This document shows, piece by piece, positions 2,103 through 64,000 of a stretch of 64,000 bases of DNA. A program made the position numbers and the translations under genes. The notes under the pieces were generated by a model, which was not told the origin of the DNA, searched no databases, and saw only the letters and a program-made list of their open reading frames with translations. The DNA comes from Sorghum bicolor. Taxonomy: Eukaryota; Streptophyta; Magnoliopsida; Poales; Poaceae. Each line of letters begins with the position of its first letter. Position 1 is the first letter of the stretch. Location: assembly GCF_000003195.3 (NCBI RefSeq), contig NC_012873.2, positions 23,781,317-23,845,316 of the forward strand. Direction: 5' to 3'.

Positions 2103-3398
2103 CTAGGGGTAGAATCGACGTAGCAGTTCGATGTTCCATGCGTTGGTGAAGACTGCTCCCTTCTCGTCCGCCAACTTGTACGTTCCCGGCTTCAGGACCT
2201 CGGCCACCACATACGGGCCTTCCCAAGGTGGAGTCAACTTGTGGCGTCCTTGATTGCTTTGCCGGTGTCGTAGGACAAGGTCGCCCACGTTGAGGTCCCT
2301 CTTGCGCACGTGCTTGTCGTGGTAGAATCGAAGTTTCTGCAGATATCTGGCGGAGTTGAGGAGGGCCATGTCTCGAGCCTCCTCGAGTTGGTCGACCGCG
2401 TTTTCTTGAGTCTCCTGATTGGATTGCTCATTGTATGCCTTGAGTCGAGGTGACCCATACTCGAGGTCTGTGGGGAGGACAGCCTCGGAGCCGTAGACCA
2501 TGAAGAATGGGGTGTACTTTGTGGCCCTGCTTGGTGTTGTCCTTAGACTCCATAGGACCGAGGAAAGCTCCTCGACCCAATTCTTGCCAAATTTCTTCAA
2601 ACGATTGTAGATCCTTGGCTTGAGTCCTTGCAAAATCATGCCATTGGCACGCTCGACCTGGCCGTTAGTTCGAGGGTGGGCTACTGCAGACCAGTTCACA
2701 CGGATGTGATGCTGATCGCAGAAGTCCAAGAACTTTTTTCCGGTGAACTGAGTGTCGTTGTCGGTGATGATGACATTGGGAATCCCAAATCGGTGGATTA
2801 TTTTGGTGAAGAAAAGGACGGCCTGCTCGGAGCGGATGTTGGTGATGGGTCGAGCCTCGATCCATTTGGAGAATTTGTCAATGGCCACCAGCAAGTGGGT
2901 GTACCCTCCTTTCGCCTTTTGTAGAGGTCCTACCAAATCGAGCCCCCACACAGAAAACGGCCAGGTAATGGGGATCATCTGAAGAGCGTGGCCGGGCATG
3001 TGCGTCTGCTTGGCGTAGAACTGGCACCCGTGGCACGAGCGAACGAGCTCGGTGGCATCCGCCACGGCCGTCGGCCAGTGGAAACCTTGTCGAAAAGCGT
3101 TTCCTACGAGGGTCCGTGGAGCAGCATGGTGGCCGCAAGCCCCCGAGTGTAGGTCCTCGAGGAGTTTTCGGCCTTCTTCCATGGTAATGCAACGCTGTAA
3201 GACCCCCGTCGGGCTTCGTCGATATAGTTCATTGTCTTCGCCATAGATCACATATGACTTGGCCCGTCGAGCGATACGACGGGCCTCTGACCGATCTTCC
3301 GGCAGTTCGTCGCGGATTAGGCAGTCGAGGTATGGCGTGCGCCAGTCGAATGGTCGACCAGGCTGCCGCTCTACCTCCATCACTTCAGCCGCCATCAA
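2103..3398 (-). CDS. Element A integrase, C-terminal part of pol
   Basis: Open frame of about 431 residues. In order it has an HHCC zinc-binding region (HSGACGHH followed by CHGC), then the DDE core: first Asp in GLDLVGP, second Asp in ITDNDTQF, Glu in NGQVERAN, so the catalytic triad looks intact. The C-terminal part has the GPYVV-like motif of gypsy integrases and ends in an RRFYP tail. No chromodomain is visible, as expected for Tat. This frame is shifted by one base from the RT frame at about 3396, so pol is interrupted here by an indel. The integrase inserts the cDNA copy into the nuclear genome. Confidence 0.88.
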   Translation of the reverse strand: MMAAEVMEVERQPGRPFDWRTPYLDCLIRDELPEDRSEARRIARRAKSYVIYGEDNELYRRSPTGVLQRCITMEEGRKLLEDLHSGACGHHAAPRTLVGNAFRQGFHWPTAVADATELVRSCHGCQFYAKQTHMPGHALQMIPITWPFSVWGLDLVGPLQKAKGGYTHLLVAIDKFSKWIEARPITNIRSEQAVLFFTKIIHRFGIPNVIITDNDTQFTGKKFLDFCDQHHIRVNWSAVAHPRTNGQVERANGMILQGLKPRIYNRLKKFGKNWVEELSSVLWSLRTTPSRATKYTPFFMVYGSEAVLPTDLEYGSPRLKAYNEQSNQETQENAVDQLEEARDMALLNSARYLQKLRFYHDKHVRKRDLNVGDLVLRHRQSNQGRHKLTPPWEGPYVVAEVLKPGTYKLADEKGAVFTNAWNIELLRRFYP

Positions 3399-5323
3399 GA
3401 GTGTGTCGACGGTGTTGGTTGGCTGGGCAGGAGCTGCGTCGATGCCAGCCCCTGGCCTAAGTCGACGGATGGCTCGTGGAGATCTCTCGAGAACGCGTCA
3501 GGCGGCACCGTGCCTCGAGTTGATGCGATCTTGGCGAGTTCGTCGGCTGCCTCGTTGTAGCGTCGGGCGACATGGACAAGCTCGAGACCATGGAATTTGT
3601 CCTCGAGTCGACGGACTTCTTTGTAGTACGCCTCCATTTTCGGGTCGTGGCAGCTCGAGGTTTTCATTACTTGGTCGATGACGAGTTGGGAGTCACCTCG
3701 GACGTCGAGGCGTCGGACTCCTAACTCGATGGCAATCTTGAGACCATTGACGAGGGCCTCGTATTCTGCGACATTGTTAGACGCGGCAAAATGGGTCCTG
3801 ATTATATACCTCATGTGGACGCCCAAGGGTGAGATGAACAGCAGGCCGGCCCCGGCCCCTGTTTTCATGAGTGACCCATCAAAATACATCGTCCACAGCT
3901 CCGCCTGGTCCTGAGTCGGGGGAAGCTGGGAGTGTGTCCATTCTGCGATGAAGTCTACCAGGGCCTGCGATTTGATGGCCTTGCGAGGCGCGTAAGTGAG
4001 AGTCTCACTCATGAGCTCGACCGACCATTTTGCTATTCTTCCCGTGGCCTCTTTGCTCTGGATTATTTCGCCTAAGGGGAAAGACGAGACCACCGTGATG
4101 GGGTGGCCAAGAAAGTAGTGTCGCAGCTTACGGCGGGCAAGGATTACGGCATAGATCAGCTTCTGGATTTGGGGATAACGTGCCTTGGTCTCCGAAAGCA
4201 CCTCACTGACGAAATAAACTGGCCTCTGGACTGGTAGCGCATGTCCCTCCTCCCGGCTTTCGACCACCACCGCTGCGCTGACGACCTGGGTCGTCGACGC
4301 AACGTAGAGGAGGAGCGGTTCTGCAGGTTGAGGTGGGACCAGGACTGGTGCTGAGGTCAGCGTCTTCTTCAGCTTTTCGAGCGCTTCCTCGGCCTCGGGG
4401 GTCCCAGAAAAATGCTCGACTTTCTTCAGAAGTCGATACAATGGTAACGCCTTTTCTCCTAGTCTCGAGATGAAACGGCTTAGAGCCGCCAGGCATCCCG
4501 TGACTCTCTGCACACCCTTGATGTCCCGGACCGGCCCCATTCTCGTGATGGCCGAGACTTTCTCGGGGTTGGCCTCGATGCCACGCTGCGAAACAATGTA
4601 GCCCAAGAGCATGCCTCGAGGCACGCCGAAAACACACTTCTCGGGATTGAGCTTGATCTGGTTGGCGTGTAAACAGCTAAAAGCGATCTGAAGGTCCTGG
4701 ATCAGGTCCCATCGCCGCTTTGACTTGAAGACAATGTCGTCGACATAGGCCTCGACTGTCGACCCTATGTGTTCACCAAAAACGTGGAGCATGCAACGTT
4801 GGTATGTAGCTCCCGCGTTTCGAAGCCCAAATGGCATGGTCACATAGCAATACATCCCAAAAGGCGTGATGAAAGAGGTCGCGAGCTGGTCGGACTCCTT
4901 CATTTTTATTTGGTGGTAACCAGAATACGCATCAAGGAAAGAAAGGGTTTCACATCCCGCGGTAGAATCGACAATCTGATCAATACGTGGCAATGGAAAA
5001 GGAACTTTTGGACATGCTTTATTTAGACTAGTATAATTGACACACATCCTCATTTTCCCATTCTTTTTCTTAACTAATACAGGGTTTGCTAACCAGTCGG
5101 GATGATGAACCTCCTTGATGAATCCAGCCGTCAAAAGCTTGTGGACTTCCTCGCCAATGATCTTGCGCTTCTCCTCGTCGAATCGGCGCAACCGCTGCTT
5201 CACTGGCTTGGAACCAGCTCGAATCTCCAAGGAGTGCTCGGCGACTTCCCTCGGTATGCCTGGCATGTCCAAGGGACTCCATGCAAACATGTCGGCGTTT
5301 GCACGGAGAAAGTCGACGAGCAC
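3395..5323 (-). CDS. Element A reverse transcriptase, RNase H and second RNase H
   Basis: Open frame of about 642 residues. RT motifs run from the LVKKKNGKMRMCVNYT block to the catalytic YVDD in AYVDDIVFK, then the thumb. A first RNase H follows but looks degenerate: its opening Asp region reads LLLYVAST. A second RNase H of the plant/archaeal type comes next, with MYFDGSL, AEYEAL, VRGDSQLV and a final NEAADELA segment. A decayed first RNase H followed by a second one is known in Tat elements and supports the lineage call. The frame continues upstream through a TAG at 5332-5330 into the protease region, and ends by frameshift at about 3396. Confidence 0.9.
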   Translation of the reverse strand: MLVDFLRANADMFAWSPLDMPGIPREVAEHSLEIRAGSKPVKQRLRRFDEEKRKIIGEEVHKLLTAGFIKEVHHPDWLANPVLVKKKNGKMRMCVNYTSLNKACPKVPFPLPRIDQIVDSTAGCETLSFLDAYSGYHQIKMKESDQLATSFITPFGMYCYVTMPFGLRNAGATYQRCMLHVFGEHIGSTVEAYVDDIVFKSKRRWDLIQDLQIAFSCLHANQIKLNPEKCVFGVPRGMLLGYIVSQRGIEANPEKVSAITRMGPVRDIKGVQRVTGCLAALSRFISRLGEKALPLYRLLKKVEHFSGTPEAEEALEKLKKTLTSAPVLVPPQPAEPLLLYVASTTQVVSAAVVVESREEGHALPVQRPVYFVSEVLSETKARYPQIQKLIYAVILARRKLRHYFLGHPITVVSSFPLGEIIQSKEATGRIAKWSVELMSETLTYAPRKAIKSQALVDFIAEWTHSQLPPTQDQAELWTMYFDGSLMKTGAGAGLLFISPLGVHMRYIIRTHFAASNNVAEYEALVNGLKIAIELGVRRLDVRGDSQLVIDQVMKTSSCHDPKMEAYYKEVRRLEDKFHGLELVHVARRYNEAADELAKIASTRGTVPPDAFSRDLHEPSVDLGQGLASTQLLPSQPTPSTHS

Positions 5324-51660: not shown

Positions 51661-52939
51661 TGTTGACGGTCCTTAATGCTCACATTTAACCATCAACTAA
51701 TCATGGAAAACGACTTATATGCAACCATCACCCAGACTTAGGGTTTTATCTAACAGAATTCCACGAGTTTTGGTGTTTGTCTATTTCTGGAGGGGGTTAT
51801 CAGGAAATACGGAAGAAAGGCCCACACGTCGGGTTTACATAGAGATATTAACGTGCCGCGCAATTTTCTATCATCTAGAAGACTCCAAAAGCCACGGGAA
51901 TGAAGCGGAGGCCGGGAGGGCTCAGGCACAGGGCGCCCACCCTAGTCCTAAGGGCGCCCGCCCTACTACAGTGGTCAATCAGAGTCCAATTCGGGTATTA
52001 CGCTCCACCGACCTAAAGGATCAAGGAAAACCGTGCGATTAATGTCGGTTTGATCCAAAAGCCCATATTCACTTGAAGGGACTATAAAACCAGACCCCCT
52101 GGCCCCTTGAGATCATACCTCTTCTACAGAATCAAAGCTAGGGTTTCAATTCTTCATCCAAGTAGAGAGGATCCCTCTAGTTCTTCTAGTTCTACCTCTA
52201 GTTCATCTAGATCTAGTTCTAGTTCGTCTAGTTCTAGTTCTAGTTCCTCTAGTTCTAGTTCTAGTTAGTTCTAGTTGTAATCTAGAAAATAGGGAGAGAG
52301 AAGAGGAGAGCGGAGGAGGAGCCGGATCTGTCGGATCTTCCTCAACATTGTACTTTTGCAGCAACTGGTTTGTTCTTCGCCGTTCTCCAGGTTCTTCAAT
52401 TCATAAATCTTGAGTTCTTTAATTACTTTTATTTACATTCAAGTTGTTTATTGGATTCCCACTTGCATCAAGTGCTCTAATATTTGAAACATTAGAGTAG
52501 TAATTAATAGATTAGACGTGGTGTTTAGTCTTGCAATTACCTGGAATTCCACCCAATCCTGTGGATTGTTGTGGTAGGCTTAGGGTAGTGACAGCCCTAA
52601 CGGTCGATGTATTCCACCTCGTTCGGATCGGTGTTTGTAGGACCGTAGTCAGACCTTCCTAGCCCCCTTCTCATCTCTTTTCGTGGTTAGTGCTCTGATG
52701 TCCCGATATAAATAATCTTGAAGTAATTCTTGATTCTTAGATCAACTAGAGAACTCTCAGGAAACTTCCTCTCTTCCCACCAAAAATACTTAAATAGTTA
52801 TCCTTGGGTGATCTTGATTCTTAATTGGTACACTCACATTCCCTGTGGAAAATCGATACTCTGGAATACTCCCCGGTGAAGGCTACATCGGCATCCGTGC
52901 GCTTGCGGATTTTTCTGTTTGCGTTTAAAATACCCAACA
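51661..52939 (+). mobile_element. Solo LTR of a family-B relative in the E protease
   Basis: It starts TGTTGACGGTCC and ends TACCCAACA, as does the B LTR, and shares a long block (near 51730-51840) with the complement of 16610-16720. Length is 1279 bp. Flanks are ctgaa and cagaa (4 of 5). The protease frame reads across once it is removed. There is no internal region, so it is a product of LTR-LTR recombination. Confidence 0.85.
52175..52285. repeat. TCTAGTTC microsatellite
   Basis: Irregular repeats of ctagttc and ctagttct over about 110 bp inside the solo LTR, upstream of its likely leader. Confidence 0.75.
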
Positions 52940-53129
52940 CAGAACTGATGCGATAACCACAACCCAACTCGGTAATTGGTTGGTCATGCTTTTGTGCAAA
53001 TGCTTCGCTCATGAATGAATGCGATGATCCAGAATCAAACAAAACAACGGCAAGATGTTGGTTGACAGGAAACATATCAGCTGTTACTGGATCTCCTTCT
53101 AGGATTTCCTCTATCGAGGTGTGGTGCAC
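52940..53129 (-). pseudogene. Element E protease, N-terminal part
   Basis: It has the active site VVLFDSGSSHSFM and a downstream ITELGCGYRI segment, then stops at the inserted LTR. Chromovirus proteases of this group carry DSG(S/A)xHSF, which agrees. Confidence 0.82.
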
Positions 53130-53149: not shown

Positions 53150-54244
53150 GCTACTTCTTGGGGTAAGGACATTTCTTAGCAAAGTGCCCCATCTTGTGGC
53201 AATTATAGCACGGACCCTTGGTCATGTTGTTGGCAGCAGGTGCTGCAACTTGCATTGCCTTTGGCTTGGCGGGAGCCACTGCTACCTTGTATGACTTTTG
53301 ATGCGTTGGATGCCCTGTGTTCCTTCTCTGCGGCGGTCAAAACCTAGCACCTGGGGCAGGAGGACGATACTGCTGACGTTCTGCCACCACTGGTGCCCTG
53401 GATTAAGACGATCCAGCTTCAAAAGTCTTTTGCGCGACTTGGATGCACTATAGTTGTTGTTATTGTTCTCTTGGGTCAGACAGTCGCTAATGTAGGCATT
53501 GAAGGTAGCCTGGGCCCCTGTACCCATGGTCTTCAGCATCTTTGGGCTCAAACCTCTCTAGAAACTAGCGATCTTCTTGGCCTCTATGTTTACGAACTCG
53601 GGAGCGTAACGAGCAAGATTATTGAAAGCGTGCAGATACTCCTTCATAGACTTGGTCCCCTGAGACAGCTTCATGAATTCTCCGACCTTCATTTCCAGCA
53701 CACCCGGAGGAATATAATTCTCCCAAAAGGTGGTGGTGAAGCAGTTCTAGGTGATCGGGGTCCCCTCTGGGTAGGTGGTGCGATGATGGGACCACCATAT
53801 CCCAGCAGGCCCCTGCAACTGAGGCGCTGCATACTCTGCCTTGAGCTCTTCAGTCATTCGAGGGAGACAAAACTTCTGCTCCATGGTGTTAATCCACTCA
53901 TCGGCCTCAAGCAGTTCTAGGGCCTCCTTAAAGATCGGTGGTTTGGTATCCATGAAGTCCTTGAAAGAGTTGTACTGATTTACTTCACGGCCGCCCTGCT
54001 TATGCCCACGGCGGGTGTTGTCAGCGATATTGCGTAGGGCTTCTTCCATGTTGCGCTGCATCTGCTCCATGTTGCGTTGGCTCCCCAGAAACTGCACAAA
54101 GAACATGTTCGCAGTGTATGGAGGAGGTGGTGGTGGTGGCGGTGATGGTGCTCTTTCCTCATTCCTATGAGCCTCTCCTCCGGAGCAACCTGCTCCAAGA
54201 CCGGGGTTGCTGTTACCCCCGCCACGAGTTTGCACCATCTGCAT
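53150..54244 (-). pseudogene. Element E gag
   Basis: Starts at ATG 54244 (MQMVQTRGG) or the second Met. A Pro-rich run is followed by the chromovirus gag core (PIFKEALELLEADEWINTM, LQGPAGIWW), GEFMKLSQGTKSMKEYL, and KMLKTMGTGAQATF. It ends in a zinc knuckle CYNCHKMGHFAKKC at about 53160-53205. Stops at about 53747 and 53553 and a frame change near 53400 break it. Gag core, knuckle and protease follow in the usual order. Confidence 0.82.
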
Positions 54245-54574: not shown

Positions 54575-55618
54575 CTACTCGCTATGGTCACTGTCCATGC
54601 CGGAACCTTCCTCATCCTCATCTCCACTAGCGGTTGCCTCCATCTGTGGATCCTCATCCATCTCATCCTCAGAATCTAACTCAGCTGCTACAAGCAGGTG
54701 GTGAGGGTGGAGCTGGTTATGCAGCTGGTGGATCTCCTCATGCAGATTCTCATTGTACTCCTCAGCATTAGCTAGCTGCTGCTCAAACTCTAGCTGTCGG
54801 GCCCTCAATGTGTCCTCCTCGTGCCAGGCTTCATTCCTCTGACCAAGCACATGAACTAGCATGCGCTCGCAGTTCCTGTGAGCGGTGGTCACCCTATCCC
54901 TCTGCTCTCTCACTGCGAGCAGATCCTGGCTCAGCTCACTGTTCTTCTGGACTGCATGGTCCCTCTCCAGAGTCACACGGGCCAACTCTGACTGCAGCCT
55001 CTCAACCCCACTATCAAACTCAGGCTATAGCTGGCGCTTCTCATCCTGAACTATGAGAAGAGACCCAGACAAGCGTCCCAATCAACGCTCTAGACCCCCA
55101 TAGGTCTTCATTAAGGCAAACATAGCACTCATAGTTGCGCTGTCACTGTGCTGATCCTCATCCGCACTCCTCTCTAGAGCATTCACCTCGGACTGATCCC
55201 ACTCCGAAGTGTAGGGGTTACCCCGGGGAAACACCCCAGCGAAGGCGTGGGCCAGCTCCTACGGAAACCTCTCCATGATGACCCTCAGAACCGCAAAAGC
55301 AGCCCTGTTGGCACCCTAGAAAGGCATGGTACCTCGGGACTCGTACACCCAGCCACCTAAGGCAGGGTCACCTCCACTGGTAGGGACCACTACCTCAATC
55401 CCCACCAGAGTCCCGTCACCAAGCTGCTCCTTGTTCCAATAGTAGCGAGGTTCCCTTCCTTTGGGATACCCCATCGAACTGAGCACTCTCTAAAGCAAGG
55501 TAAGCATCCCAAACTCCTGTAGGAACTTGCTCTTATGACGCGAGCTCCTAGCTACCAACTGATGGCGAGGGGCCCGCCCACCAGTGGACTTGCGAGAGGT
55601 GAGCCGAGTGCGTGCCAT
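54575..55618 (-). pseudogene. Element E orf0 with a histone H3-like N-terminus
   Basis: One frame of 347 codons from ATG 55618-55616 to the stop at 54575. Five in-frame stops (about 55490, 55317, 55258, 55084, 55028), mostly TAG, show decay without frame change. The N-terminus, MARTRLTSRKSTGGRAPR, matches the H3 tail at 16 of the first 26 residues after Met. H3 K4, K14, K18, K23 and K27 are Arg or His, but R8-K9-S10-T11-G12-G13 is kept. A middle domain (about residues 45-150) is unrecognised. Residues 200-300 form a coiled coil, and the last 35 are Asp/Glu-rich. Rice RIRE3/RIRE8 relatives have an ORF at this place. Function unknown. Confidence 0.7.
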
Positions 55619-56425
55619 CTGTCGAAAAATAGAATACCTTGGGTATGACTGAGGACTATCTTTTATTATCTTAATTGAAATTGGGACAGATTTAAATAAG
55701 GGGAGGAAGTAAGCAACGATATGGAATGAACATGATGCATGCACGGACTTACGATCTCACAAACGTAGAAAAGAAAATTAATACTAATCGGTATATGCGG
55801 TGGCACACAACGTTCTCTCATAACGTAACTAGCGTTCTAGCCGAGAACGTGGTTAGCGTACCTGCAGAAAACTCATTTCAGCCCAACCACAGTATGAACA
55901 TGCAGAACAAGAATTTAGAGCTATACACCCCACACACATAGACACCACATTCATGCATATGGTGTGTTACTACCCACATCATCGCCCTTGTGACGGCATC
56001 GCCTCTTAGGACGGAATCTCCAACATATGGTACTGTTCCCAGGCACACCAAACATGCGTGCATGACACAGCACCTATTATCACTTCCCTAGATCAGCAGT
56101 GTATCCGATCATGCTCTCACAGCTCCCACTTACCAAGGCGTAGAGGAAGAATTGATCCATACATTACCACTCAAATGAATGGCACTCATACTATTGCACA
56201 CCGTATGAGCGATGAAAATAGAAATATGATGCATAACCCCTAAGTCAGTACTTAACTAGCCACCTTAGAGTCCTTAACTGGGCATAAAGGATATGACCAT
56301 GGCACACCATGTAGTTTTTCCAAAAACTCATTTTAACACCTTGATTATCGTTATTTTGATAGATAACTTTGATTAACTGGTTTTAGTTCAATTTAGAATG
56401 TACTTATGAACAGTAACTCGCTAAA
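55619..56425 (-). other. Leader of element E between primer-binding site and orf0
   Basis: About 800 bp without a convincing frame. An open stretch continues the orf0 frame upstream to 55744 but lacks H3-like content, so the Met at 55618 is preferred. Confidence 0.55.
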
Positions 56426-56441
56426 CCTTGCTCTGATGCCA
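56426..56441 (-). other. Primer-binding site of element E
   Basis: Minus strand TGGCATCAGAGCAAGG, two bases after the LTR end. It resembles the initiator tRNA-Met site (TGGTATCAGAGC) with one transition. Confidence 0.78.
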
Positions 56442-56443
56442 GC

Positions 56444-57611
56444 TGTAACAGAACCATCCAAATTATAAGAGATTAAGCCTAATAATGAACATTTGCACAG
56501 TCAAACCATCAAGCTTAAGCCCATATAATCCTGGTAGTCCGTGAAATCTCAAAGGATTTCAAACCACAACTCATACATACAACCAAGATCGTAATAAGTT
56601 CAGCGGTCACCATTCACAATTACATCCAGTTCGCAACATTCATCACATACATCGGAGTTACTTAAAGTTATTACAAACCAAGTTCTCAAGTAGCGGAAGC
56701 TTCATAGTTTGAAAATAACACACACACATTTAGTCTGATACAGTGCCATAGTTCGATCATTCCCACAAAAGCAAAAGAGGAGGTAGAGTGACCATTGCCC
56801 TTGGTCTAGTCATCAGCCATTGCTTGGTACAAGCAGTGAATGCAATAACCATAGTACATTTTCCCATCTGCAAAACAACATGGGAATAGAACCCTGAGTA
56901 CGAGAATGTACTCAGCTAGACTTACCCATCATAAACCAAAATTAAAGACCCTTCAAGGATCATGAAGGCTGCATGGTGGGGTAGCTGAGACCTTTTTTGC
57001 GTAAAAGCATTACTCAACTAAAAGAGATCATAGCCTGATAACCTTTCTCTTTTAATTAGCTCAAGTTAAGTATTATCATTACCTATTATCTTGGTTTGCA
57101 CATGTACTATTGCAAACAAGTGTTGTGATATGATGGTACCTCATCATAGCATTCACAAATCATTACTTATCATATCCAAGTGTTCCATAGTCCTTACTAC
57201 GAGGACAGGGCTCATGTCAAGTGCTCACTATCCAGGAGCGATGGTGACTCGAATCGATTTCTAACCAACTGTCGAGTTTATTCCCCAGACAAACCACACT
57301 CACTCATCAAGTGAGCTACAGATCACCGTATTGCACTATCCAGGACCAATTGGCGGGTTCGACACGCACCGCCCGTACCTGAGGACCGTTGCGGCGACCG
57401 AGGTATCCAAGGTATACCAAGGTTGCGCGTCGTGCCCTCGTCGTTCTCCTCAACCATCACCAATACAGCGCGTACATCAGGCCGATTCCCGGCCCGGATA
57501 GTGCTCAGGCTTCGCGGTCGGAACGACTTATCCTTCCAGCTAAGTGTGGGGCATGCGTTCAACATGACAAGAGGGTCATCAATGATCGGTCCTTTATCGA
57601 CACAGGCAGTG
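56444..57611 (-). repeat. 5' LTR of element E, start cut by element F
   Basis: Minus strand end is CTGTTACA. It corresponds to 46975-48148 of the inner insertion, including the shared block around a complement of tctagctgagtacattctcg. Only the last 1168 bp are present. The remainder should lie beyond the right end of F. Confidence 0.82.
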
Positions 57612-58807
57612 TGATATGACCATGCCACCAAGTAAGATGTCACAAGCTCCAAGTCAAGCTACACCCACTCAAGTTTCACCTACACCGACACCAGCCCATG
57701 TCATCAATGGACCGATTACACGTAGTCGTGCAAAGAAGCTACATGTAGAGGTCCACGCGCTACTTTGTGAGATTCATTTTAATATTAATAAGAATTATAT
57801 ACTACCTAAGTATTGTACCTTGATTATACTCAGGTATATAGAAGAAGAGAAGGATGAATCGGACCCGAAGAACGGACCAGTGCAAGTTCCAGAAGAAGTA
57901 AAAAATGGACTAGTGGAAGTCAAAAACAGACCAGTACAAAGAAATCTTCATAACTTTTTAGTCACAAAAGCTATGAAGGTCCATGAGCACTTGTTGGAAA
58001 GCTTGACGCGTCTACTTTCCAATGAATCTAGTGGCGACCAGTTTGGATACACCATATTGCCTGTAGACCAGAATTAGTACAGACTGCTCAGAAGGTCAAC
58101 AGTCTGTCGTGACAGAATGTTGGTACAACTTGCCAAGTAAAACTGTATCAATCTACAATGTTTCGTGCTGGTTGGCATACATTGCTGGAAAGCCCATTGA
58201 GTCTAGTTTCACACCCAAGAAACAATTCATCATTTGGACTTCCCAATGAAAAGTTATGGTCAGTTTATTGGAAACTGCTCTGGAGGCCAACAGTCACGCG
58301 AAGCCACTTCGGGAATCCATTTCGAGGGGACCTTTCACATTGCCTTCCCTCAGAAACTCTATTTCGTTTTCATACCTATCTAGCAGGGTTGTTGCTAGTA
58401 CAAATACCCCCTAAGACTTATTGTAATCTAAGACTTTTGATAATTGAAATACAGAACCCTTCTGTTTAGACGTGTGCTAGCAAATATTCAGAGAGTGATC
58501 TCTACCCCTTGCTCTTGTGATTTCCTCGCGGGATTACATAGGCGGCGGCTTCATCCGCTCCCAATTGGTGCTCCTACTCCCTTCAAGGTATGCCTTGATT
58601 GATTGTAGGTTGTGTTGGTTGGTTCTTTGAGAGTGTGGTTGGGCGAATCCTCGATTCAGGTTGCCGGTTAAAGACAGTGGTTGGCTTCAAGTTTTATTTG
58701 CCAGGCTGCACTAGTTATCGCTGCTTGCAGCAAGTTATCCGGCTGTTCTTCAGCTAGTTATCAGTGTTCTTCCTACGTCGTGAAGATCGGGACAACGTGT
58801 TGCATCA
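57612..58807 (+). repeat. 5' LTR of element F (1196 bp)
   Basis: TGATATGACC to GTTGCATCA, with TGAT/ATCA ends. The primer-binding site follows. Its first 1005 bp line up with 62996-64000 with no net indel. The five bases before it are cagtg. Confidence 0.88.
57616..58077 (+). other. LTR-embedded coding tail of pol (5' copy)
   Basis: An open frame of 153 codons whose first part reads PPSKMSQ, then GPITRSRAKKL and EVHALLCE. The second motif is a common C-terminal tail of plant chromovirus pol proteins. In the 3' LTR the same frame begins right after the polypurine tract. In this 5' copy it is not expected to be used. Confidence 0.6.
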
Positions 58808-60822: not shown

Positions 60823-62430
60823 ATGACACCCCAACCAATCATGGCTGAACACTTACAAAAGAAATCTGAAATTGTTCTAGTGAGTAGAGAGGAAGGAGAG
60901 CAGATGCAATTGAGTCCTATCCACAATTCGATGAGTGAGAGCCACAAGCCAAATTTGAGAGAAAAAAAGAGAGGAGAGGGAGAACATCTAGTTATGCTAG
61001 CCACAAAATCTGAACTGAGAGAAGTAAGGAATAACCCAGATCAAGTGCTCTTTGTACTTGTGTACAAAGACATTTTAATTTCAGCTAACGACATGACCTC
61101 TCTTCCTAGTGTTGTGTCTCATCTTTTGCAGGACTATGGAGATGTCTTTCTAGAAGAAACACCGGTGGGACTACCTCCAATTCGTGGGATTGATCATCAA
61201 ATTGATCTCATTCTAGGGGCTGCACTACCTAATCGACCACCATATCGAACCAATCCAGAAGAAAGAAAGGAGATACAAAGGCAAGTGCGAGAACTTCTTG
61301 ATAAAGGTTTTGTTCATGAAAGTTTATGTCCTTGTGCTATTCCTGCAATTTCAGTGCCTAAGAAAGATGGTTCTTGGAGGATGTGTGTTGATTGTAGAGC
61401 TGTAAATAACATCACTGTTCGATATCGCCATCCTATTCCACGTTTAGATGACATGCTTGATGAATTAAGTGGTTCCACCATATTCACTAAAATTTATTTG
61501 AGAAGTGGATACCATGAGATAAGAATGAATACAGGGGATGAATGGAAAACTGCATTCAAAACAGAATTTGGGCTGTATGAATGGTTAGTTATGCCATTTG
61601 GTTTGACTAATGCTCCTAGTACTTTCATGAGATTAATGAACCATGTCTTAAGAGCTTTCATTAGAAAATTTGTTGTTGTCTACTTCGATGATATCTTAAT
61701 TTACAGCAAGTCTTTTGAGGAACATGTGAATCATATTCGGCAAGTCTTGGAAGTGCTTAGAAATGAGAAAATATTTGCTAATCTTGAGAAGTGCAGTTTT
61801 TGCACAGACCATGTTGTGTTTCTTGGCTTTGTTGTTTCAGGAAAAGACATAGAAGTGGATGAAAGCAAGGTGAAATCCATCAAGGATTGGCCAACTCCAA
61901 CGAATGTTAGTCAAGTAAGAAGTTTTCATGGCCTTGCTAGTTTTTATAGGAGGTTTGTGAAAGACTTCAGTACCATCGCTGCTCCTTTGAATGAATTGGC
62001 AAAGAAAGGTGTTGACTTTAAATGGGGAAAATCACGACAAAATGCATTTCAATAATTAAAGAAACATTTGACTGAAGCACCTATACTTGTTCTTCCTGAT
62101 TTCACTAAAACTTTTGAAATAGAATGTGATGCTAGTGGAATTGGGATAGGTGGAGTTTTAGTGCAACAAGGAAAACCCGTAGCATATTTGAGTGAGAACT
62201 TGGGAGGTGCTCAACTGAATTATTTTGTGTATGACAAAGAATTGTATGCATTGGTGTGTGTGCTTAAAACATGGCAGCACTACTTATGGCCAAAAGAATT
62301 TGTTATTCACTCTGACTATGAAGCTTTGAAGTACTTGAAAGGACAAGCAAAACTGAATCGTCGTCATGCCAAATGGGTTGAGTTCATCGAAACATTTCCA
62401 TACATTGTGAAATATAAGAAAGCGGTGACT
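60823..62430 (+). pseudogene. Element F reverse transcriptase and RNase H
   Basis: RT from VGLPPIRGIDHQIDL through VPKKDGSWRMCVDCRAVN to the catalytic YFDD in VVVYFDDILIYSK, then FHGLASFYRRFVKDF. The frame has one TAA at 62053-62055, then RNase [37 protein letters not shown], and [15 protein letters not shown]. It then jumps at about 62430 to late integrase sequence, so the end of RNase H and most of integrase are deleted. Catalytic RT residues are intact. The RT sequence style resembles CRM elements. Confidence 0.86.
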
Positions 62431-62439
62431 CGCACGTTG

Positions 62440-62995
62440 TCAATGTTGTTGCAAACAATAGTGAAAAAGAACCTGAAGGTTTGTGAGGAATGCTTGACAC
62501 ATGTGGAGTTTGCATATAACAGGGCAGTACACTCTAACACTAATATGTTTCCTTTCGAAATTGTATATGGGTTCAAACCTATTCATCCGATAGATTTGTT
62601 GCCCCTTCCATTTGCAGGAAAGAACCAATATGGACGCCTCGAAGCGTGCTGCATACATCAAGAAGGTACACAAGAAGACCAAGGAAGCAATTGAACTCAA
62701 GGCAGGACGCAAGGCTGCAAGTATGAACAAACCTAGGAAGAAGGTGTTATTTGAACCCAGGAACATGATGTGGATACACTTGCACAAGGATCTCTTTCCT
62801 CAGCAGTGCAAATCAAAATTATTGCCATGAGGAGATGGTCCATTTCGTGTTCTTGAGAAGATCAATGACAATACAGACAAGATTGATCTTCCTGCAAGTT
62901 ATGGCGTGAGCAACTCCTTCAATGTTGCTGATCTCTCACCATTCACAGGTGAAGACACTTTAGAGTCGAGGACGACACCTTTTCAAGGGGGAGGA
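62440..62995 (+). pseudogene. Element F integrase remnant and polypurine tract
   Basis: It keeps [20 protein letters not shown] and [13 protein letters not shown] of the integrase C-terminal half, then a frameshift near 62610 into [18 protein letters not shown] and PRKKVLFEP. The zinc-binding part and the first catalytic residues are absent. Near the end, PFRVLEKINDN and VADLSPFTGED are followed by the polypurine tract (about 62983-62995, caagggggagga). Confidence 0.78.
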
Positions 62996-64000
62996 TGATA
63001 TGACCATGCCACCAAGCAAGATGTCACAAGCTCCAAGTCAAGCTACACCCACTCAAGTTTCACCAACACCGACACCAGCCCATGTCATCCATGGACCGAT
63101 TACACGTAGTCGTGCAAAGAAGCTACAACAAGAGGTCCACGCGCTACATTGTGAGATTCATTTTAATATTAATAAGAATTATATACTACCTAAGTATTGT
63201 ACCTTGATTATACTCAAGTATATAGAAGAAGAGAAGGATGAATCAGACTTCAAGAACGGACCAGTGCAAGTTCCAGAAGAAGTCAAAAACGGACCAGTGG
63301 AAGTCAAAAACGGACCAGTATAAAGAAATCTTCAAAACTTTTTAGTCACAAAAGCTATGAAGGTCCATGGGCACTTGATGGAAAGCTTGGCGCGGCTACT
63401 TTCCAATGAATCTAGTGGCGACCAGTTTGGATACTCTATATTGCCTGTAGACCAGAATTAGTACAGACTGCTCACAAGGTCAACAGTCTGTCATGACAGA
63501 ATGTTGGTACAACTTGCCAAGTAAAACTGTACCAATCTACAATGTTTCGTGCTGGTTGGCATACATTTCTGGAAAGCCCTTTGAGTCTAGTTTCACACCC
63601 AAGAAACGGTTCATCATTTGGACTTCGTAATAAAAAGTTATGGTCAGTTTATTGGAAACTGCTCTGGAGGCCAACAGTCACGCGAAGCCACTTCAGGAAT
63701 CCATTTCGAGGGGACCTTTCACATTGCCTTCCCTCAGAAACTCTATTTTGTTTTCATACCTATCTAGTAGGGCTGTTGCTAGTATGAATACCCCCTAAGA
63801 CTCATTGTAATCTAAGACTTTTGATAATTGAAATACAGAACCCTTTTGTTTAGCTGTGTGCTAGCAAATATTCAGAGAGTGATCTCTACCCCTTGCTCTT
63901 GTGATTTCCTCGCGGGATTACATAGGCGGTGGCTTGATCCGCTCCTAATTGGTGCTTCTACTCCCTTCAAGGTATCCCTTGATTGATTGTAGGTTGTGTT
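62996..64000 (+). repeat. 3' LTR of element F, cut by the window end
   Basis: Begins TGATATGACC next to the polypurine tract and aligns with the first 1005 bp of the 5' LTR with few substitutions and no net indel. The frame from 63000 to 63323 encodes the pol tail (GPITRSRAKKL, EVHALHCE) and lies just beyond the polypurine tract. One small frameshift separates it from the upstream pol. Confidence 0.88.

Follow-up and report, generated by a model that had tools for sequence, protein, structure and literature searches.

Whether a plant retrotransposon can carry an imitation of the histone H3 tail, and what such a tail would be for, is the question raised by a decayed reading frame, orf0, on the minus strand of the 64,000-nucleotide stretch of sorghum DNA analyzed here (C4:23781317-23845316 of a 709,120,108-base genome; hereafter the window). 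Additional reading frames termed ORF0 or 5'aORF are already known from Tekay elements (PMC3485330, PMC11728184, PMC7264820). The main texts of these three papers contain the word "histone" 0 times, and among the matches listed for the open-access literature no description of an H3 tail in a transposon was found by title or abstract.

The H3-like reading frame and its element

After the initiator Met, the window orf0 (MARTRLTSRKSTGGRAPRHQLVARSSRHK, minus-strand translation from 55618) equals H3 at 16 of the first 26 residues (positions 1, 2, 3, 6, 8-13, 15-17, 19, 20 and 26), a stretch that corresponds to codons 2-27 and is located at 55538..55615 on the minus strand. The count of matching residues given in a first-pass annotation of this DNA was thereby borne out. 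Scored with BLOSUM62, the first 28 residues reached 85, compared to a mean of -1.6 (sd 9.9) for shuffled versions; the best of 200,000 shuffles scored 50 and none was as good as the window tail. The tails of the related copies L012 and L010 share 17 and 19 residues with H3, respectively. When the open 264 residues of copy L008 were compared with the PDB using phmmer, each of the best 60 of the 141 matches was a histone H3, the best of these alignments pairing residues 1-24 with 1-24 (E 3.5e-4). It had further been claimed that only the K9 context is kept and that the other modifiable lysines are Arg or His. This applies to the window family, in which L012 retains K9 (codon at 55589..55591, minus strand, in the window) and has Arg at positions 4, 14 and 23 as well as His at 18 and 27, with the same residues present in the window copy, but not to the second family described below, which keeps K4, K9 and K14. 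Composition may explain some of the K-to-R pattern, since lysine is scarce throughout orf0 (10 K and 22 R in residues 29-347 of L012; K:R in the tail versus the rest, Fisher p 0.41). In the same copy, the lysines of H3 were lost more often than its other residues (1 of 6 versus 16 of 21 kept, p 0.015). The window copy carries S7, while A7 was present in 69 of the 70 copies of the anchor sample introduced below, and the window family is thus closer to H3 than the window copy itself. Judged by their sequence, the N-terminal 21-26 residues of the window-family ORF0 appear to be a genuine mimic of the histone H3 tail.

The orf0 frame (54575..55618, minus strand) comprises 347 codons plus stop and, in agreement with its earlier description as decayed, contains five internal stops (TAG x4, TGA x1); with L012, whose own frame of 347 codons is open, it shares 88.1% identity over 1042 nt. 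The occurrence of TAG at four of the five stops is the pattern expected if CAG decayed via cytosine methylation at CHG sites. The coiled coil and strongly acidic tail that had been proposed for the remainder of the protein are supported by a model of L012 and by the charge of three open copies. In this model a single helix extends over residues 159-303 (54710..55144, minus strand, in the window), with pLDDT values of 91-98 over 191-300 and lower ones before, while pLDDT is low from residue 307, in the acidic and apparently disordered C-terminal end (54578..54709, minus strand; DSEDEMDEDPQMEATASGDEDEEGSGMDSDHSE in the window copy). Net charge in the three open copies lies between -9 and -10 in residues 281-320 and between -11 and -12 in 321-347. 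Residues 1-30 are without structure (pLDDT 25-28) in the model, which was built from 16 close copies only, and the middle domain (codons 33-140, 55199..55522, minus strand) was modeled at low confidence (mean pLDDT 42) as helix, strands and helix. A paper on sunflower likens the aORFs of maize and sorghum Tekay elements to a double-stranded-RNA-binding protein (PMC11728184).

On the minus strand of the window, gag lies downstream of orf0 and is followed by CCHC and protease sequences. The start of gag (orf1, 53747..54244) is open for 165 codons and then broken and had no Pfam match of its own, the gag domain being seen in relatives L030 and L031. A CCHC zinc knuckle (53169..53210), read from the sequence, has a counterpart in the zf-CCHC of L031, and an aspartic protease fragment (RVP_2, 52821..53129) was detected by Pfam (E 9.9e-11), both again on the minus strand. 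On this strand, TGGCATCAGAGC at 56430..56441 resembles a primer-binding site (PBS), taken alone not above chance with 5 matches versus 5.4 expected; the 5' LTR should lie above 56441. A 300-nt direct repeat with 95% identity (57605-57904 and 62989-63288) was also noticed; it flanks a Ty3-type RT at 60823-62055 and probably represents the LTRs of a second element adjoining the chromovirus.

The assignment of orf0 to a retrotransposon, upstream of a chromovirus gag, is supported by the LTR, PBS and gag-pol context in relatives. In copy L029/L012 the LTR match ends at 3096, the PBS (TGGTATCAGAGC) starts at 3099 and the ATG of orf0 follows at 3920, 821 nt after the PBS; orf0 sits on the sense strand between 5' LTR/PBS and gag, with gag-pol downstream in L030. 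The LTR-like flanks of L029/L012 match at 97.1% over 1409 nt, which at a substitution rate of 1.3e-8 per site and year places the insertion of this copy at about one million years ago. Copies L030-L032 jointly carry gag, protease, RT, RNaseH and integrase, and the RT, of which a 33-residue stretch was read, is presumably Tekay-like. A Chromo match was found in one of these three copies, L030 (E 0.0014, below the Pfam curated cut-off), and none in the scanned ORFs of L031 and L032. From its pairing with HP1, we take the L030 chromodomain to have kept the W of the aromatic cage but to carry no aromatic residue at either of the two remaining cage positions. Published group II chromodomains are described as being without Y24 and usually without Y48 of the cage (PMC3350952). 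A tether between ORF0 and the chromodomain of the element's own integrase, as suggested in the first-pass annotation, is weakened by this incomplete cage and unlikely as stated.

Directly before the ATG, the window copy has a pyrimidine-rich run ending in CAG (55619..55642, minus strand) that resembles a 3' splice acceptor. Such a run followed by CAG or CAGG precedes the ATG in all three ORF0 families distinguished below (8, 5 and 3 copies shown), and of 70 window-family copies, 66 have AG at positions -2 and -1. In L029/L012 the leader, 821 nt long, contains 24 upstream ATGs, and a donor-like CACGGTAAGT is present near L029:3404. Splicing of the leader may give access to ORF0, whose exon would then start at the ATG. 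Such an arrangement would permit the gain or loss of N-terminal exons that the tail-less family suggests.

Variation among copies and further ORF0 families

A 30-base tail pattern had 660 matches in the genome when up to three mismatches were allowed, and an anchor of the same length, located 135 bases beyond the ATG, had 696, while reversed control patterns had 0. The anchor sample consisted of 70 copies (30 first loci and 40 more) taken from 100 listed places, the closest of the 696. Alignment of the first residues, a check proposed in the first-pass annotation, revealed that the H3-like start is kept among these copies. Position 9 was Lys in 65 of 69 copies and Met in four, with one gap, and A7, R8, K9, S10, T11, G12 and G13 were each kept in 62-69 of 69-70 copies (R8 62/70, T11 65/69, G12 62/69). 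Similar counts were obtained for P16 (69/69), R17 (58/69), H18 (70/70) and R23 (67/70), while position 14 was occupied by Arg in 58, Trp in seven, Gln in two and Pro in one of 68 copies and position 19 by Pro in 46, Gln in 13, a stop in five and other residues in six of 70. The change from K9 to Met, seen in L033, L062, L076 and one more copy, is shared or recurrent.

Mean residue identity to the reference copy in the anchor sample was 0.93 in codons 2-29 and 0.82-0.89 elsewhere. For variants with a minor count of at least 5, pN/pS was 0.40 in the tail (8 nonsynonymous, 9 synonymous) and 0.25 in the rest of ORF0 (106 and 161); the corresponding values were 0.75 and 1.16 for minor counts of 2-4 and 1.04 and 1.84 for singletons, the latter probably inflated by misaligned decayed copies. 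Among 28 copies chosen by their tail, variants present in at least four copies gave a pN/pS of 0.30 in the tail (2 nonsynonymous, 3 synonymous) and 0.10-0.17 in three other regions. Several of the tail changes within the window family resemble CpG decay. ORF0 as a whole was thus under protein-level selection in active lineages; within the window family, constraint on the tail was not above that on the rest of ORF0.

Two further pattern searches led to L121, one of four windows read (L121-L124). Its ORF0 of 216 residues starts MARQKQTPRKRTGPKGVPRHQLAPRSDQASSS, with a tail beginning MARQKQTPRKRTGPKGVPRHQLAP, and continues as a coiled coil (by likeness to L012) with an acidic end. Together with L125-L129, which start with MAR or MGR, then W or Q, followed by KQT(P/S)RKRTG(P/S)KGV(P/H)RH(Q/stop)LAP, L121 makes up the six-copy sample of a second family (family A). 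Position 9 is Lys in all six copies, embedded in PRKR in five and SRKR in one; K4, K9 and K14 are kept, A7 and S10 are lost, and K9 is the only lysine kept by both tailed families. K14 is combined with R23 except for Q at 23 in L126. Alignment of the tail to H3 requires the insertion of one residue, and z values of 6.7-8.4 were obtained against H3 for five copies (3000 shuffles each; L127, whose tail contains a stop, was excluded). When L121 alone was compared with the PDB, the best match was a non-histone (E 0.092) and H3 was weak (E 0.12 and up). This second, divergent ORF0 family with an H3 tail is new here.

A search with RT-motif variants yielded 29 places, and nine upstream windows were read (L112-L120). 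L112-L117 encode an ORF0 that, starting between residues 22 and 45, is 27-32% identical to L012. They have no H3 tail, and five of the six start MD(V/T/A)(P/S)AS..PSDTFL.EFGTPTLL; the start is lost in L115, and in L116 a stop stands directly before the ATG. This third family (family B), of which L124 is a further copy, has 61 of 142 middle-domain residues in common with the window family and also shares the coiled coil; ORF0 can thus exist without the tail. No ORF0 match was present in the stretch read of L118-L120, no convincing ORF0 relative in L122 or L123, and no ORF0 relative in the stretch examined of L130, which was aimed at another family; relatives in viral contigs were not confirmed.

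Age and origin of the tail

By our count, 17 positions of H3 1-21 are matched by old window-family copies such as L044 and 15 by L121. Both match at 12 (A1, R2, T6, R8, K9, T11, G12, P16, R17, Q19, L20 and A21) and either one at 20 of the 21, position 18 being the only one covered by neither tail. H18, P22, R23 and S24 are common to both tails and absent from H3, and a single, more H3-like ancestral tail is therefore simpler than two. With the tails paired through the H3 alignment of family A (an automatic three-way alignment leaves them unpaired beyond residue 12), L044, L003, L068 and L024 keep 15-16 of 24 tail residues of L121 and the young L012 keeps 14. This tail identity of 58-67% compares to 24% (30 of 125 residues) in the coiled coil of L012 and L121. 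Between the families, pS in the tail was 0.81-0.91 and pN 0.26-0.30, and such saturated silent sites together with 58-67% of the residues kept argue for selection on the protein. By this measure, the tail is kept by protein-level selection in two divergent families. The suggestion in the first-pass annotation to look for selection along the tail was thus answered positively between families, but not within the window family, where the tail is not special.

Nine H3 genes were compared; a second H3 pattern re-found only L103, and more H3 genes may exist. Relative to these nine, pS was 0.56-0.83 and pN 0.13-0.18 for L044, and 0.68-0.87 and 0.22-0.24 for L121, while the same codon was used at 3-6 of 15 residues shared with H3, compared to 2.6-3.7 expected from codon usage. 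With silent sites nearly saturated and codon sharing at or slightly above the chance level, these values point to an old origin, and a recent capture from any of the nine H3 genes found was rejected. In the H3.3-like gene L108, codon 23 is directly followed by an apparent intron, near where the similarity between ORF0 and H3 fades. Its codon agreement (6 of 15 versus 3.7 expected) is too weak to name it as the donor. Convergence on H3 that rises in younger copies was not seen either, as diverged copies mostly carry Q19 or a stop and young ones mostly P19. H3 identity shows only a weak positive correlation with how close a copy is to another one (Spearman 0.23, p 0.03, in 89 of 96 copies; seven with an H3 identity of at most 8 or no long match were left out). 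The tail is old and probably of H3 origin, with descent from H3 suggested by the coverage of 20 of 21 positions.

Possible roles and related systems

With moderate confidence we favor the view that the tail is an H3 mimic of H3 descent which is kept by selection and serves as a docking peptide, its partners being H3-tail-binding proteins of the host. An ancestor of the two Tekay-type chromovirus families would have taken up H3 coding sequence. With the Met, which is followed by Ala, presumably removed, the tail would expose a disordered Ala-Arg-Thr terminus, free as in H3, on a long coiled-coil rod that finishes in acidic residues and might form oligomers. In the nucleus or en route to it, this end could engage host H3-tail binders, candidates being Kap123/importin-4-type or transportin-type import receptors and/or readers and writers of the H3 N-terminus. 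ORF0 and its cargo might thereby enter the nucleus and reach chromatin, or ORF0 might compete with H3 for its binders. Import receptors are a good candidate because a basic residue is mostly kept at positions 14 and 23 in both families. Another candidate is a reader of the free A1-R2 end, as these two residues are retained by the majority of copies in each family. Kap123 is reported to hold K14 and K23 of H3 1-28, with small residues beside K14, and K14R to have a minor effect on nuclear localization (PMC5677370). Grass Tekay 5'aORF proteins are predicted to be nuclear (PMC11728184). Against a docking peptide stand the third family, which shares the middle domain yet has no tail, the pN/pS within the window family (0.40 in the tail versus 0.25 elsewhere), the Trp, Gln or Pro found at position 14 in seven, two and one of 68 copies, and the weak PDB matches to H3 of family A when searched alone (E 0.12 and up).

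Basic starts are common in such proteins, and L123, which begins with MPPRTRSAARMAA, illustrates this. That the tail resembles H3 by chance or as a generic basic N-terminus is nevertheless hardly credible and was refuted by the 200,000 residue-shuffled controls, none of which reached its score; H3 as the match in each of the best 60 of 141 PDB matches of L008 and the z of 6.7-8.4 in family A argue in the same direction. We also regard it as very unlikely that the tail is a drifting fossil without present function, left behind by an H3 capture or exon fusion long ago and seen because the active lineages are young. A third family that lost or never had the tail, the drift of position 19 in young copies and the unremarkable within-family constraint would fit such a fossil, while the between-family values (pS 0.81-0.91 versus pN 0.26-0.30; tail identity of 58-67% versus 24% in the coiled coil) are at odds with it. 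Possible, though somewhat unlikely in our estimate, is a tail that acts only as a nuclear import signal derived from H3, in which importin-4/Kap123 would bind basic anchors at 14 and 23 and the rest would be tolerated ancestry. The residues common to both tails include the uncharged A1, T6, T11, G12, Q19, L20 and A21, which are not obviously needed for import, Lys and not Arg fills the pockets in the reported structure (PMC5677370), and the tail-less family would need another signal. Import alone is nonetheless consistent with R14 in 58 of 68 and R23 in 67 of 70 window-family copies, K14 with R23 in family A (Q23 in L126), the use of K14 and K23 by Kap123 (PMC5677370) and the predicted nuclear location of Tekay aORFs (PMC11728184).

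A K9-specific decoy or tether would require that KYP/SUVH methylate K9 of ORF0 and that CMT3 and ADCP1 bind it, so that silencing factors are titrated or the element is brought to heterochromatin. K9 is the sole tail lysine in L012 and the sole lysine common to both families, and the retention of A7-G13 in 62-69 of 69-70 window-family copies, with K9 in 65 of 69, likewise suits this mechanism, which we still judge distinctly unlikely in view of the P7 (once S7)-R8-K9-R10 of family A, the Met at K9 in four of 69 copies and the lack of two of three cage residues in the element's own chromodomain (PMC3350952). With PRKR or SRKR in family A, the K9 substrate context is not kept between families; the ARKS context is not common to them, family B is tail-less, and the K9-centered design envisaged in the first-pass annotation was not supported. 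A fuller scenario, in which a grass Tekay ancestor took the N-terminal coding part of a host H3, at least two lineages kept it until silent sites were saturated, as a free tail on a coiled-coil scaffold that engages the H3-tail machinery of the host, and the window family was tuned by Lys-to-Arg/His changes until K9 was its sole modifiable tail lysine, making the tail a decoy or tether within the pathway of H3K9 silencing, seems rather unlikely.

An H3 tail kept over saturated silent sites, read as a docking peptide for H3-tail-binding proteins, provides a concrete biochemical hypothesis for ORF0/5'aORFs. Should the tail meet the H3K9 pathway, retroelements would have their own counterpart of viral histone mimicry, acting within the very pathway by which they are silenced; should it meet importins, an accessory protein would be borrowing the histone import route. 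Like the ORF0 of Retrosat2, RIRE3, RIRE8 and Sorsat2 (PMC3485330) and the aORFs of Tekay elements (PMC11728184), the window orf0 is an extra ORF between 5' LTR and gag-pol, and it has in common with the grass Tekay ORF0/5'aORF that it lies on the same strand, evolves fast and has no settled function. Histone H3 and ORF0 are alike over residues 1-21 or so, after which ORF0 continues as coiled coil and acidic end; no Pfam histone match was obtained for L008 or L012. While the chromodomain of chromovirus integrases reads H3, ORF0 imitates it, and the same kind of element has both. Histone H3 mimics are known in the form of ARKS/ARTK-type motifs in viral proteins and G9a. ORF0 resembles these viral and cellular mimics in placing a short H3-like stretch around a lysine in a non-histone protein, whereas they are short motifs of few residues and ORF0 follows H3 in register from the N-terminus for about 21 residues, in a plant retrotransposon with hundreds of copies.
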